Source of the DNA: Xanthobacteraceae bacterium
GTDB lineage: Bacteria > Pseudomonadota > Alphaproteobacteria > Rhizobiales > Xanthobacteraceae
Assembly: GCA_019746355.1 (NCBI GenBank)
Contig: JAIESC010000018.1
Span: 1-15,224, forward strand
DNA: 15,224 nt
Direction: 5' to 3'
The notes under the pieces: generated by a model
The model's database searches: none
What the model saw: the letters and a program-made list of their open reading frames with translations, nothing else
Told to the model about the DNA's origin: nothing
Made by a program: the position numbers and the translations under genes
Shown: piece by piece, positions 9,664 through 13,657 of the stretch
Position numbering within the stretch: position 1 is the stretch's first letter
Layout: each line of letters opens with the position of its first letter

Positions 9664-10509
9664 TCAGTGCGCCATCAGCACCGGCAGCTCGGCATGCGCC
9701 AGGATGTGGCTGGTCGCGCCGCCAAAGATCATCTGCCGGAGCCTGCTCTGGGTGAACGCGCCCTTGACCAGGAGGTCGCAGCCTTCGGCCTTGGCCGCGG
9801 CCAGGATCGCCTCACCGGTGCTCTTGCCGTCGAGATTGACCGACTTGAGCTTGGCCGGGATGCCGTTGAGCCGAAGATGCCTGAGGAACTGGTCGGCCGA
9901 CGGTCCCGGCACGCCCTGCCCGCCGACGACGTTGAGCACGGTGACCTGCGCCGCCTGATGCAGGAGCGGCATGGCAAAGCCCGAGGTCCGCGCCTGCTCG
10001 GTGCTGCAATTCCAGTGCAGCATGATGTTGGTGGCGATCTGCTTCGGCGGCACCGGCGGCGCGAGCAGGACCGGCTTGCCGCTTTCGAACAGGCCGGACT
10101 CGATCGCGCGGTTGTGCAGGCCGATGGTGTTGGCGTCGGGCCGGCCGAGCACGGTGATGTCGAACACGCGGCCGTAGCTGCCGACGAAGCTCTCGCCCTC
10201 CGGCGCCTCGTCGAGCCAGGCGCACGACAGCCCCGCCGCGGTGCCGTTCGCCTTCGGCACGCTGCGCGCCTGCATGAACGCCTCGAACATGCGGCGCGCC
10301 TGCGCCGCCTCTTCCAGGCTCTCCTGGCGATACGACTCCAGCGGAATCGAGCCGGCCGGATCGACCGCGACGAATTCGCTGATGCCGAAGCGCAGCGGGA
10401 AGCCCTCGATGTAGCTCCCGCATTTGCGCGCGAGCAGCAGCGCAGTCTCCAGAACGGACGTCATCCCCTCATGCGGCTCCATCGGAACCAGAATCGATTT
10501 CATGCTCAT
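9664..10509 (-). CDS. Universal stress protein with two UspA domains
   Basis: This 281-residue protein carries an N-terminal UspA-like domain (about 3-150, starting KSILVPMEP) and a C-terminal one (about 158-280). The second ends in the nucleotide-binding segment VKGAFTQSRLRQMIFGGATSHIL (248-270). That segment keeps the GG(A)TSH portion of the ATP-binding pattern but has Thr where the second Gly of G-x2-G is usual, so ATP binding is uncertain. Tandem USPs of this length are common in alphaproteobacteria and respond to stress or growth arrest. ATG 10509 has a GGGAG ribosome-binding site seven bases away; a second ATG two codons later (10503) is less well placed. A good sigma-70-type promoter lies about 85 bases upstream. 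Confidence 0.9.
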   Translation of the reverse strand: MSMKSILVPMEPHEGMTSVLETALLLARKCGSYIEGFPLRFGISEFVAVDPAGSIPLESYRQESLEEAAQARRMFEAFMQARSVPKANGTAAGLSCAWLDEAPEGESFVGSYGRVFDITVLGRPDANTIGLHNRAIESGLFESGKPVLLAPPVPPKQIATNIMLHWNCSTEQARTSGFAMPLLHQAAQVTVLNVVGGQGVPGPSADQFLRHLRLNGIPAKLKSVNLDGKSTGEAILAAAKAEGCDLLVKGAFTQSRLRQMIFGGATSHILAHAELPVLMAH

Positions 10510-10777: not shown

Positions 10778-11106
10778 TGGTGCGGGCGGCCGGACTTGAA
10801 CCGGCACAGCGCTTTCGCGCCTAGGGATTTTCGTACCTGCTACGGCTTTCGCCGCCCTCACCTCCCGCGCTGCCGCGTGAGGCTCGGTTTGGGGTCTGGA
10901 CTATACCTTCACCGTTGCGCACACGCGCGCTTTAGGTGCTGCCCGTCTAGTCTCTACACCTTCGCCCCGGCCTTTTCGGCCGATGCGCTTGGCTCGGGAT
11001 TGCCTGTCACCGGTTTCCCCGAATTTGAGCAGTTCTGCATCCCGCGTTTCCCCGGGAGCACTCAAAGATCTCAAGTCCCTTGCGTCTACCATTTCGCCAC
11101 GCCCGC
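10778..11106 (-). tRNA. tRNA-Leu(UAA) interrupted by a group I intron
   Basis: The 5' exon is 34 bases (11106-11073) and the 3' exon 54 bases (10831-10778, with encoded CCA). Joined, they fold as a normal class II leucine tRNA. The acceptor pairs GCGGGCG with CGCCCGC, with discriminator A. The anticodon stem AGGGA/TCCCT encloses the loop CTTAAAA, giving anticodon UAA. The variable arm is GCGC-GAAA-GCGC, and the T arm GCCGG-TTCAAGT-CCGGC. No other reading gives an intact anticodon arm. The intron splits the anticodon between U34 and A35. A plausible promoter lies just upstream (11116-11145). Standard tRNA searches can miss such a gene because the intron separates the two halves of the tRNA. 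Confidence 0.92.
10832..11072 (-). ncRNA. Group I self-splicing intron in the tRNA-Leu(UAA) anticodon
   Basis: The intron is 241 bases and starts after U34. P1 forms between exon ACUU and intron GAGU (intron positions 10-13), with the required U-G pair at the splice site. UUU just before this guide can pair with the 3' exon AAA as P10. Conserved core pieces are readable: P4 from TCGGG and CCCGA (within GGCAATCCCGAGCC), P3 from CTGC and GCAG, and P7 from GACTA (in AGAGACTAGACGGGCAGC at 10938-10955) and TAGTC (in GGTATAGTCCAGACC at 10893-10907). The last base is G, as expected for omega-G. No open frame for a homing endonuclease fits. The core matches the IC3-type tRNA introns of cyanobacteria and plastids; self-splicing is inferred. 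Confidence 0.9.
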
Positions 11107-11115
11107 GAATGCCGA

Positions 11116-11145
11116 TCTATAGCCTTGGCATAGCCAAGCCGCCAA
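11116..11145 (-). promoter_or_regulatory. Candidate promoter of the tRNA-Leu gene with an internal inverted repeat
   Basis: On the minus strand TTGGCG (11145-11140) and TATAGA (11121-11116) are spaced by 18 bases, each with four of six consensus matches. The predicted start, near 11109, would leave a very short leader before the tRNA 5' end at 11106. The spacer contains CTTGGC-TAT-GCCAAG, a perfect 6-bp inverted repeat (11124-11138) that could be a binding site. Confidence 0.45.
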
Positions 11146-11243: not shown

Positions 11244-11693
11244 TCAGCCCTTGCCGGTGTGGCCCCAGACCTCGTCCCAGATCTGCCCGGTCGGATCGGT
11301 CACGCGGCCATCCTTTTCGTAGAACTTGTTCGGCACCTGGAAGATCGCGAGCATTAAGCCGCCCTCCGGGCACCAGGCCGAGTGCCGGCTGCCGGCTTCG
11401 CGCCAGATGAACTCGCCCTTGGCCGCGGCCATGCCTTCGACCGGGCCTTCCTTGTCCACCAGGCGGCCTTCGAGCACGAAGGTCTGCTCGATGTTGACGT
11501 GCTCGTGGTCCGGCAGCACCGCCCCCGGCGCAAAGCGCATCAGCGCGGTCATCAGGCCGGTCTTGGGATCCATCAGCAGCGTCTTGACCTCACAGCCGGG
11601 GAAGCGCGTCGGCTTCCATTCCATGTCCTGGGGCTTCACGAGATGCGAATGCTGGTCTGCAGTGACGTGCTGCTTCGGCGTGACGGCGTCCAT
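11244..11693 (-). CDS. Cupin-domain protein, ChrR-like
   Basis: This 149-residue single-domain cupin has metal-binding residues His63, His65 and Glu69 in motif 1 (PDHEHVNIEQTFVLEGRL) and His104 in motif 2 (GSRHSAW). This is the usual 3-His/1-Glu set, so it probably binds Fe, Mn or Zn. The layout resembles ChrR-like cupins and small dioxygenases or isomerases; the substrate is not predictable. It has no signal peptide, so it is cytosolic. The ATG at 11693 is preceded by a strong GGAGGA (11704-11699) five bases away. The transporter gene ends 54 bases upstream on the same strand, so the two may be co-transcribed, and an intrinsic terminator follows the cupin gene. Confidence 0.88.
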   Translation of the reverse strand: MDAVTPKQHVTADQHSHLVKPQDMEWKPTRFPGCEVKTLLMDPKTGLMTALMRFAPGAVLPDHEHVNIEQTFVLEGRLVDKEGPVEGMAAAKGEFIWREAGSRHSAWCPEGGLMLAIFQVPNKFYEKDGRVTDPTGQIWDEVWGHTGKG

Positions 11694-11747: not shown

Positions 11748-13532
11748 TTACGGCTTCACGGGCCACAGCCGAGCCATCGCGGAGACGAGCAAGCCCATGC
11801 CGAGACAGACTGGCACGACGGCCCAAAGCCACGCCTCGCGGCCGGTCATGACATGGATCGCGACGGCAACGGCTCCACCGAGTGCGCCGCATCCCATGAT
11901 CGCAAGCGCCCAATTCCGGCTGACGGTTCCCACGCCTTTGCTCATCGGTGCCAAGAGCGGGCCCAGCACGAGCGGCAGGAAAGCGAGCTGGGCGGAAGCC
12001 AGCGCGAACAAGAGCGCGAGGAATGTGCTGCCTGAAATGCTGATCCGAAACGCCGTCTCGGCCACGAGGAACGCCACGGCGATCGCGGCCAGAAATCCAA
12101 CTCCCGCGATCATGACGCGGCGCATCGTGACTGCCTCATCGGCCGGTTGAGCCGCACCTGCCGAGAGCTCCGGCCGAAACCACGGCAGGATGTCGTAGCG
12201 TATGGTGCCGAGACTCGCGGAGAGCATGGAGATCATCGTCGACAGCGCGATCGCACACACACCCACGAGCAACAGCGGCAAGATGATGACGGTGACTTCG
12301 TTCTGGTCCGACACAAGCTGCGTGACGAAGGCGGGCATCACATCCGCGCTGCCGGGCGTCTGCGTGGCCATGACCGCAAGCGCGCCGAACATGCACATCA
12401 GGAGCCCAAGCAAAGCGCCTTCCGTGCCGGTCATCCTGAAGAAGCTGCGCAGAATCCCGGGTCGCAGGCCGGGTTCAAAATTGCTTTCGTCGATGTGCTT
12501 TTCGATCGCCGCCAACCTTTGCCAGTTGGCAACGTCAACAAGCGGGTAAAGCAGCGGAAGCAGGATCAGGGCGATCAGTCCTGCGGCCGGCACGTTGGTT
12601 CCGACCTGAAAGGCAGCCATGCTCTCGCGGCCGGCGCCAGGAAGCCCGATGAAGTAGAACAGCATGCCGGCGATAACGATGGCGAGAACGACGAAGATCG
12701 AAATAACGGGGCTGAGAAGCTGCTGAAACTTCTTCAGCGCGGCTGCACCGCGGGGTGGGCGATCCGGATCGGCAAGGCGGATCAGATTGGTGTCGACGTA
12801 TTTCGAGCGCCGGTAGGCCAGAACGAAAACGCACCACCCCGCGATCAAGCCGATTGCGAGCGTGCCATGGGGCGGCATCGGACCAAGCATGGAGGCCTGC
12901 AGATACAGAAGCAGCGCGGCCGATCCGATAAGGCCCAGATAGGCCATGCCGAGCTGCAATTGCGCGCAAGCCATCGCCGCCGAATTGCCCGAAACCAGCG
13001 CACACAGCAGCGTCAAGATCAGCATGCCGAACACCGACGGATAGACCAAAGACGTGCTTCCCAGCACCGGCTTCAGCAGCGCTGCGACCGCGATTGACTC
13101 GCCAACGATCAGGCCAAAGAGGGCGAACAGCGTCAGGCTCGCGGCGAGCAGACGCACCGTCGGATCGTCGCCGTGCTGGCGCGCAACAAACGCATGCACC
13201 GTGATGGACCGGTCCTCGCGGAGCGCTCCGGCCACGAATTGAACAATCGGGCCGCGTAACCTGTAGAGCAGAAGAAATCCCATCCCGAGGCATCCCGAAG
13301 CGACCACGGCCGGCCAAACATCGCCGGTCGCGCCCCAGGCGAAAAACGGTCCGACGGCCGCAAGGCGCAGTGTCGAGGCAACGGAAGCGTTCCCGATCAC
13401 GCCGAGCGGGGTGGACCGGGACGAGACGAAAAAATCCTGCGCCCGCACATGACGCTGGCGGCGCAGCAGGTATGCCGGGACGAGGCAGATCGCGATGGAA
13501 AGTGCGACGGCAGCGAAGCCCAAAAATGACAT
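11748..13532 (-). CDS. SSS-like (LeuT-fold) membrane transporter
   Basis: This 594-residue integral membrane protein has about 13-15 hydrophobic segments. It resembles the sodium:solute symporter (SSS) family. An early RAQDFFVSSRSTP segment (30-42) aligns with the D-[YF]-F-[LV]-x-[GS]-R motif that follows TM1. DVANWQRLAA (333-342) matches the characteristic D-x-x-x-x-Q-R-x-x-A motif. A Ser-rich helix STMISMLSAS (431-440) sits where the Na+-site serines lie in the family, followed by YDILPWF. The match is distant, and neither substrate nor ion can be named. The frame is open to a TTG at 13616, but the ATG at 13532 starts right before TM1 and is preferred, though its ribosome-binding site is weak. 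A cupin gene follows and a divergent exported-hydrolase operon lies upstream. Confidence 0.82.
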   Translation of the reverse strand: MSFLGFAAVALSIAICLVPAYLLRRQRHVRAQDFFVSSRSTPLGVIGNASVASTLRLAAVGPFFAWGATGDVWPAVVASGCLGMGFLLLYRLRGPIVQFVAGALREDRSITVHAFVARQHGDDPTVRLLAASLTLFALFGLIVGESIAVAALLKPVLGSTSLVYPSVFGMLILTLLCALVSGNSAAMACAQLQLGMAYLGLIGSAALLLYLQASMLGPMPPHGTLAIGLIAGWCVFVLAYRRSKYVDTNLIRLADPDRPPRGAAALKKFQQLLSPVISIFVVLAIVIAGMLFYFIGLPGAGRESMAAFQVGTNVPAAGLIALILLPLLYPLVDVANWQRLAAIEKHIDESNFEPGLRPGILRSFFRMTGTEGALLGLLMCMFGALAVMATQTPGSADVMPAFVTQLVSDQNEVTVIILPLLLVGVCAIALSTMISMLSASLGTIRYDILPWFRPELSAGAAQPADEAVTMRRVMIAGVGFLAAIAVAFLVAETAFRISISGSTFLALLFALASAQLAFLPLVLGPLLAPMSKGVGTVSRNWALAIMGCGALGGAVAVAIHVMTGREAWLWAVVPVCLGMGLLVSAMARLWPVKP

Positions 13533-13657
13533 AACCAATTCGCCGGGTTTACCCGCGTGCCGCAACAGGCCATGGCGGATTCGCGCAAGACTAATGGACG
13601 CAGCGATGAGCGCCAACCGGCCGTGCCCGCAGAAATGGCCTCGCGTTCAGACCGCAA

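Follow-up and report, generated by a model that had tools for sequence, protein, structure and literature searches.

A group I intron-split tRNA-Leu(UAA) gene in an alphaproteobacterium, related to the cargo of islands that split the native gene

Anatomy and distribution of the intron-split gene

The stretch of DNA analysed here, 15,224 nucleotides of a Xanthobacteraceae genome assembly (contig JAIESC010000018.1) that we call the window, carries on its minus strand, at 11106-10778, a tRNA-Leu(UAA) gene into which a group I intron of 241 nt is set, between U34 and A35. The 5' exon (11073..11106) ends with U33-U34 of the anticodon loop, the intron (10832..11072) ends with a terminal G at 10832, and the 3' exon (10778..10831) begins with A35 and encodes the CCA end. 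When introns are allowed, ARAGORN places a 241-nt intron at 34/35 of a tRNA-Leu(UAA), and the joined exons give an 88-nt tRNA with a clean cloverleaf, a long variable arm and a UAA anticodon; the 5' exon is also delimited by the 44-row alignment described below. The observation made in an earlier note on this DNA, including its exon coordinates, the length of the insert and its position within the anticodon, is thus confirmed. The note had also warned that standard annotation might miss the gene, and under default settings ARAGORN indeed finds no tRNA anywhere in the window. We considered the short D-loop of the tRNA as a sign of damage and rejected this reading, since several other carriers of the intron have the same short D-loop. 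Nine nucleotides before the tRNA, a promoter-like TTGGCG-18-TATAGA can be read from the sequence (11116..11145, minus strand), an element that a consensus promoter scan of the window did not list.

The sole Rfam match in the window (cmscan, 4227 families) is to the group I intron model RF00028, at 10883-11082 on the minus strand; it covers the full model (1-253) and scores 50.1 bits (E 2.2e-10), which is marginal against a gathering cut-off of 50 bits. P1, P3, P4 and P7, which the earlier note had listed, can be read in the sequence, along with P8. An internal guide, GAGU (11060..11063), forms P1 with the exon sequence ACUU (11073-11076), leaving a U.G wobble at the splice site; the 5' strand of P3, CTGCTC (11027..11032), pairs with 10939-10944; that of P4, TTCGGG (11018..11023), pairs with 10993-10998; and that of P7, the guanosine-binding helix of group I introns, is GACTA (10948..10952), with its partner at 10899-10903, all on the minus strand. 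A P10 pairing is plausible, and the terminal G is in place. By its anatomy the intron has the parts needed for guanosine-dependent self-splicing: the predicted course is an attack by guanosine just after the U that the exon contributes to the P1 U.G pair, followed by joining of the exons at the anticodon, which would yield a normal tRNA.

Because the RF00028 score is marginal, we tested the structure on relatives, using an alignment of 44 intron-bearing tRNA-Leu(UAA) genes that share the intron site and include the window and two plasmid copies. The set leaves aside L136/L216 (one locus, with an unmatched 3' exon) as well as L121 and L127, although ARAGORN reads both of the latter as tRNA-Leu(UAA) with an intron. 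Across 46 named pairs in 12 helices, 98.1% of cells can pair, as against 28.6-45.5% when the partners are slid by 1 to 3 columns, a difference that excludes a chance origin of the fold. Changes on both sides of a pair occur in 18 pairs, including one of the six in P3, where U-A is replaced by C-G in 7 of 44 rows, and two of the five in P7; both helices pair in 100% of cells. The U.G pair that the guide forms at the 5' splice site is kept in 44/44 genes. The counted pairs of P4 are invariant in the 44 rows, so this helix offers no test of covariation, and the terminal G is no independent count outside the window, the rows having been extracted by a pattern that requires G before AAAATC. A consensus computed with RNAalifold contains P1, P3, P4 and P8 and is without P7, because P7 cannot be drawn together with P3. 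The covariation among these genes, added to the covariance-model check, bears out the assignment to group I.

A neighbouring protein leads to relatives in the order Hyphomicrobiales, in agreement with the alphaproteobacterial host proposed earlier; its closest match, L043, is 96% identical over 165 residues and comes from a metagenome-assembled genome (G001). Among 296 sampled genomes of the family of G001, 31 match RF00028 and 25 of these carry the exons of tRNA-Leu(UAA), the other six comprising three tRNA-Arg(CCU), one tRNA-Lys and two partial matches, G115 and G060 (the latter Thr according to ARAGORN). Used alone, ARAGORN shifts the boundaries and names several of the Leu-intron genes Phe or Ser. 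With 25/296 family genomes carrying the intron in tRNA-Leu(UAA), plus others of the class, we reject a reading of this intron as a rare oddity, and with it the earlier suggestion that a Leu intron is unusual in proteobacteria. Another three matches (Bradyrhizobium lablabi SZCCT0009, B. cenepequi CNPSo 4026 and B. agreste CNPSo 4010) come from 48 further genomes reached via named loci, some of which are also among the 296. With all tRNAs pooled, RF00028 matches 31 of 385 genomes across the class, and scores in other genomes range from 26 to 76 bits; searches across more than 40 genomes use stricter filters, by which weak matches are lost. Other alphaproteobacterial tRNAs, apparently Lys and Arg(CCU), also match RF00028 (L222, L226, L227 and L104, L106, L109). 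One genome, G236, has four RF00028 matches (L177, L178, L179 and L180), all in tRNA-Leu(UAA)-type genes, the D-arm of L179 being damaged.

Islands that split the native tRNA-Leu(UAA) gene

Several genomes have another tRNA-Leu-like sequence 1.4-1.6 kb upstream of the intron-bearing tRNA; where read, it is a 5' half only, ending in or just past the anticodon loop, and a gene of about 400 codons stands between the two. We sought the missing 3' half in 16 genomes and found it in ten, 20-40 kb downstream and on the same strand; G339 has the right half only, and G024, G163, G470, G698 and G713 gave no correctly placed partner half. In all ten islands the joined 5' and 3' halves restore a clean native tRNA-Leu(UAA) with matching acceptor stems (for example GCTCGCG/CGCGAGC), whereas none of 20 unjoined control stretches reads as a tRNA. 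The two ends of each of the ten islands have CTTAAAA in common, most with a few extra bases. This is the seven-base anticodon loop, which one account of tyrosine recombinases describes as their usual overlap region in tRNA genes (PMC8371274).

Each of the ten islands contains a complete second tRNA-Leu(UAA) gene, which is intron-split in eight (G091, G236, G274, G213, G073, G216, G074 and G430) and intronless in two (G195 and G209). The eight intron-carrying islands do not represent eight independent events, because G091 and G236 are near relatives whose integrases are 97% identical. The intron interrupts the loop core CTTAAAA, and one of 44 introns leaves CTTAAAA at its 5' junction. We propose that these 20-40 kb islands insert by means of a tyrosine recombinase into the 7-bp anticodon loop, leaving the native tRNA-Leu(UAA) gene halved, and that the complete and usually intron-split tRNA-Leu(UAA) borne by the island would read UUA once the native gene is split.

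Seven of the roughly 400-codon proteins were scanned against Pfam: six match integrase domains, four of them over the curated cut-off, and the seventh (L183) matches none, while a profile built from the six integrases matches L183 at 669 bits. Of 54 fetched regions, 13 contain the gene by this profile, and all 13 belong to the 45 Leu-intron regions, which come from 42 genomes (G236 contributes four); set against 0/9 regions with introns in other tRNAs, 13/45 is not a significant excess (p 0.09). The integrase gene ends at most about 140 bp upstream of the intron-bearing tRNA in 12 of the 45 and 1.9 kb before it in L212, and it is partial in L219; the orphan 5' half lies about 60-210 bp before the integrase frame in 9 of the 13 integrase-linked regions. 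L192, L193 and L217 lack this first type of integrase and have, about 200 bp upstream, a 5' half. The island of G213 is of another type, with a different integrase (PF00589 with PF13356) near its other end that scores 20.7 bits against the first profile; its cargo includes arsenic genes and an ArdC-like gene, and its intron-bearing tRNA belongs to a separate, well-supported branch of the intron tree.

A search for the first integrase in the 296 family genomes gave 20 matches in 18 genomes. Beside these lie eight intron-split UAA genes, two intronless UAA genes (L270 and L264, the latter with a stop inside its integrase frame) and two intronless CAA genes (L268 and L273); at the last two, the same integrase family also splits tRNA-Leu(CAA), and an intronless CAA copy lies beyond the integrase. 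Five of the other eight matches end in a tRNA-Met-like gene (three confirmed by ARAGORN), another is at a contig end next to the 5' half of a tRNA-Leu(CAA), and for two no clear partner is seen. The four intronless copies beside the same integrase led us to reject the idea that the intron is obligatory in every replacement tRNA. The intron is nevertheless enriched beside the integrase: it occurs in 7 of the 9 genomes with an adjacent UAA copy compared with 18 of 287 others (p 4e-7), or, counted by loci, in 8 of 10 (p 5e-8), with p-values that ignore relatedness and rest on the sensitivity of RF00028. The 25 carriers in the family divide into seven with this integrase adjacent, two with the 5' half of an other-type island and 16 with neither.

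Three states of one locus and the origin of the window's gene

The tRNA gene of the window is flanked on the left by a ChrR-like cupin gene (11244..11693, minus strand; Pfam), which marks the native tRNA-Leu(UAA) locus, and on the right by a gene for a Usp-domain protein (9664..10509, minus strand), which marks that locus in the nearest kin. The cupin gene stands left of an intronless tRNA in L002, L003, L005 and G002, left of an island in G074 and G216, and left of an intron-bearing tRNA without that integrase in the window, G001, G208 and G150. In L002-L005 the window's locus holds an intact intronless tRNA-Leu(UAA) with acceptor strand GCCGACG. On the right side, the window's methionine-synthase-like and FAD genes are found again in L001-L005, as well as in G208, where they lie about 6 kb beyond the tRNA, and the right flank of G208 matches 3.7 kb that start about 4 kb beyond the 3' half in G074. 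A single chromosomal place is thus found in three states, with an intronless gene, with an island, or with an intron-bearing tRNA alone, the window being an example of the last.

Two further features of this neighbourhood deserve mention. In G002, the genome of L001, one contig (L300, G002:C33) has the cupin gene next to an intronless tRNA-Leu(UAA) that is intact, and another (L001:1-1650) has a 3' half that follows foreign sequence; the two contigs are unjoined, and together they suggest an island of the ordinary kind, one that restored its target, at the window's locus. The window also holds, at 11748-13616, a coding-like frame of 622 codons with no Pfam or NCBIfam match, which G001 shares (87%) and which is absent from the other kin loci compared.

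We consider it likely, with a probability of nearly four in five, that the whole gene was acquired, most likely via an island of the kind described above, its type being foreign to the lineage. The exons of the window's gene are foreign to its locus: identity between the spliced tRNA and the native one of L002-L005 is 82-84%, while 28 of 42 other intron-bearing tRNAs are closer to the window's than these native kin, the best being L098 at 94%, and the integrase-linked L099, L092 and L128 have exons 92% identical to the window's. The other 14 of 42 are no closer than the native ones, the lowest at 76%. The acceptor strand GCGGGCG is found in 32 of 44 intron-bearing tRNAs, and the eight native genes that intron-carrying islands have split all lack it; it is no signature when taken alone, because some intronless tRNAs (G195 and G060) have it too.

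The region just upstream of the tRNA tells a related but weaker story. We compared the 45 bp upstream of the window's gene with those of 42 carriers (G001 left out) and with shuffles of each. The best scores at the same locus are those of G208 (z 7.0), the island copies of G074 (4.1) and G216 (3.9), and G150 (3.8), and good scores from other loci are those of L098 (z 4.1) and L129 (z 3.8); four native kin range from -0.2 to 0.2, and four host halves from -0.4 to 2.3. In all, z exceeds 2.3 in 12 of the 42 carriers, namely 7 of 12 integrase-linked ones against 5 of 30 others (p 0.02), and the remaining 30 fall below. This comparison supports an island origin at the window's locus, and the upstream region is no general mark of intron-bearing tRNAs.

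These comparisons also bear on the idea that the intron alone entered the native tRNA gene by homing or reverse splicing, perhaps co-converting exon bases as it did so. Group I introns can in general move in these ways, and co-conversion could alter the bases that flank them. An intron of 241 nt, however, is too small for a homing endonuclease gene, the acceptor stem differs on both sides from that of the kin's native gene, and the upstream 45 bp are closer to the island copies at this locus than to the native ones. Entry of the intron by itself is accordingly improbable, and the exon identities and the upstream region led us to discard the view that gain of the intron by the native gene is the more likely course.

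Another alternative is that the intron is an old resident of the lineage's tRNA-Leu(UAA), as in cyanobacteria, and was lost in many relatives. Some inheritance is clear: the same intron is present at the end of a contig of G001, whose upstream 4.1 kb are 92% identical to the window, indicating that the two have inherited it since their split, and a second set of carriers has common flanks on both sides. In a tree of the introns the window groups with G001 (99/96), and this pair with G109 and G042 (96/97), inside a 15-row set. This set itself holds two integrase-linked introns, however, and the 12 integrase-linked introns are dispersed across the tree (5 changes, 2 of them forced by well-supported branches), so that linked and unlinked introns are interleaved. 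Moreover, the tRNA of the kin at this locus is another one, intronless and with a dissimilar upstream region, and the islands carry split native halves. We find long vertical descent unlikely on these grounds. The earlier note had left the choice between vertical inheritance and transfer undecided; the kin's intronless gene, the exons, the upstream region and the related islands lead us to favour transfer of the whole gene, with inheritance confined to the time thereafter.

The gene might instead be a non-functional relic, with another gene doing its job. TTA accounts for only 1 of 287 Leu codons across 12 genes of the window, the full genome of the window lies outside the data, and a plasmid copy in Bradyrhizobium elkanii (pUSDA76) shows that such genes can decay. 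Against this, the exons form a clean cloverleaf and the core helices pair, and five carriers represented by one near-whole-genome contig each (G029, G099, G142, G171 and G208) showed no intronless UAA copy at up to 3 mismatches. Carrier G079 does have an intronless UAA copy. That none was found in G001 is weak evidence, because its tRNA-Leu(CAA) was not found either, and it is possible that the window's genome has a second, intronless UAA copy beyond the contig stretch analysed. We regard disuse of the gene as very unlikely.

Group I introns in tRNA genes also occur on plasmids and perhaps in a phage. The pUSDA76 copy (L112:3990-4253) consists of an intron-like stretch and a 3' exon without a 5' exon, lies beside a TrlF-family ATPase gene and gives no RF00028 match at E 0.01. 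A plasmid of Bradyrhizobium sp. ISRA443, typed as conjugative, has a complete intron-bearing tRNA-Leu(UAA) beside trb conjugation genes (L111:4001-4290). The plasmid pCTX-M3 (L113:4001-4299) carries an intact intron-bearing tRNA-Leu(UAA) of another branch than the window's, near aac(3)-IId. This pCTX-M3-type gene is present in 1280 of 72,556 PLSDB records (1273 at a level of at least 99%, 1257 covering at least 80%), on plasmids from Escherichia, Klebsiella, Salmonella, Acinetobacter and other hosts, and it recurs on the arsenic island of G213. Finally, Gordonia phage Daredevil (L114:1380-1690) has a group I-like core in an apparent phage tRNA with the loop CUU|UUAA (perhaps Lys) and an integrase gene near it; this core did not reach E 0.01 with RF00028.

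Returning to acquisition of the whole gene, we found no remnant of an island or of a native tRNA beside the window's gene (scores of 15 and 22 against shuffled maxima of 21 and 24), and no integrase domain among the 20 window frames scanned. The window's gene is a relative of island cargo and not itself an island, and since no island remnant surrounds it, we infer from its relatives that it passed through an island that is no longer there. The intron-bearing tRNA would have replaced the native gene at its home locus in the window's lineage, with either the island body being lost or the gene alone recombining in. One plausible route would be recombination between the two copies of the 5' half, with deletion of the integrase as its result; an A-C mismatch in the acceptor stem of L090/L181 hints at such an exchange between 5' halves and is no proof of it.

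Why the intron should accompany these islands invites a more tentative proposal. An island that leaves the anticodon loop split must supply a replacement tRNA, yet an uninterrupted replacement would be an attachment site in its turn. With a self-splicing intron inside the 7-bp crossover core, the replacement could be shielded, the site being hidden in DNA and the tRNA restored in RNA. We hold this to be possible and rather less than an even bet, and two of the ten islands carry intronless replacements. If true, it would offer a testable reason for the intron's site, explaining both the anticodon-loop position of bacterial tRNA introns and the spread of introns without an endonuclease, and it would also explain the presence of the intron in two types of island whose integrases are very different and lie beside opposite halves, the left in one type and the right in the other.

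Intron travel and relation to known systems

The structure of these islands suggests one way in which such introns travel between bacteria. Mobility of introns is usually explained by an endonuclease, which the group I introns found here in bacterial tRNAs are too short to encode, and still these introns occur in a scatter of genomes; the islands provide a visible vehicle, and would tie the spread of the intron to island integration. A prediction follows, that carriers depend on ribozyme splicing to read UUA. For those who search genomes, detection of introns of this kind lies outside the design of tRNAscan-SE 2.0, according to its authors (PMC8450103). The islands, too, would probably escape any island finder whose starting point is an intact target tRNA.

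Group I introns in tRNA-Leu(UAA) and islands in tRNA genes are both already known. What appears to be new is the mode of travel, in which bacterial islands leave a tRNA gene split and bring along an intron-split copy: we found no earlier report of it, and a literature search over titles and the starts of abstracts, with most subscription journals outside its reach, gave no report of a group I intron on a tRNA-targeting bacterial island.

The intron site between U34 and A35 of tRNA-Leu(UAA) is, we take it, the same as in cyanobacteria such as Anabaena. The cyanobacterial intron encodes no protein and has been described as long inherited with its host lineage, whereas the gene described here is foreign to its lineage and of a type found on islands, so that we liken the two by site only. 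A group I intron in tRNA-Leu(UAA) of a deep-subsurface gammaproteobacterium was reportedly described by Vepritskiy et al. in 2002, and is likewise a proteobacterial tRNA-Leu(UAA) intron, a likeness that we draw by description only. The introns of Azoarcus tRNA-Ile and Agrobacterium tRNA-Arg(CCU), which belong to subgroup IC3, are also small group I introns in the anticodon loop, but of other tRNAs, and we know of no island link for either.

Among islands, those catalogued by Islander are described as having a tyrosine integrase, a tRNA target, an attachment site in the anticodon loop and a displaced tRNA fragment; by the same account, islands in tRNA genes normally restore the split target with a fragment carried in the island, and the 5' fragment is the one displaced in 159 of 3919 (PMC4383910). 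The islands described here differ in that the native gene is not restored, its halves remaining at the two ends, and in that they carry a whole extra tRNA, mostly with an intron. A further parallel concerns the disrupted tRNA-Thr(GGU) of Caldiarchaeum, where a 5' fragment and a recombinase gene are followed by an intron-bearing tRNA 1.8 kb on, and for which Sugahara et al. (2012, PMC3293823; discussed in PMC8371274) propose that a mobile element brought the archaeal intron. That case involves archaeal introns in one population, whereas the intron described here is a bacterial group I intron, both native halves are mapped in ten islands, and the replacement tRNAs belong to more than one lineage.
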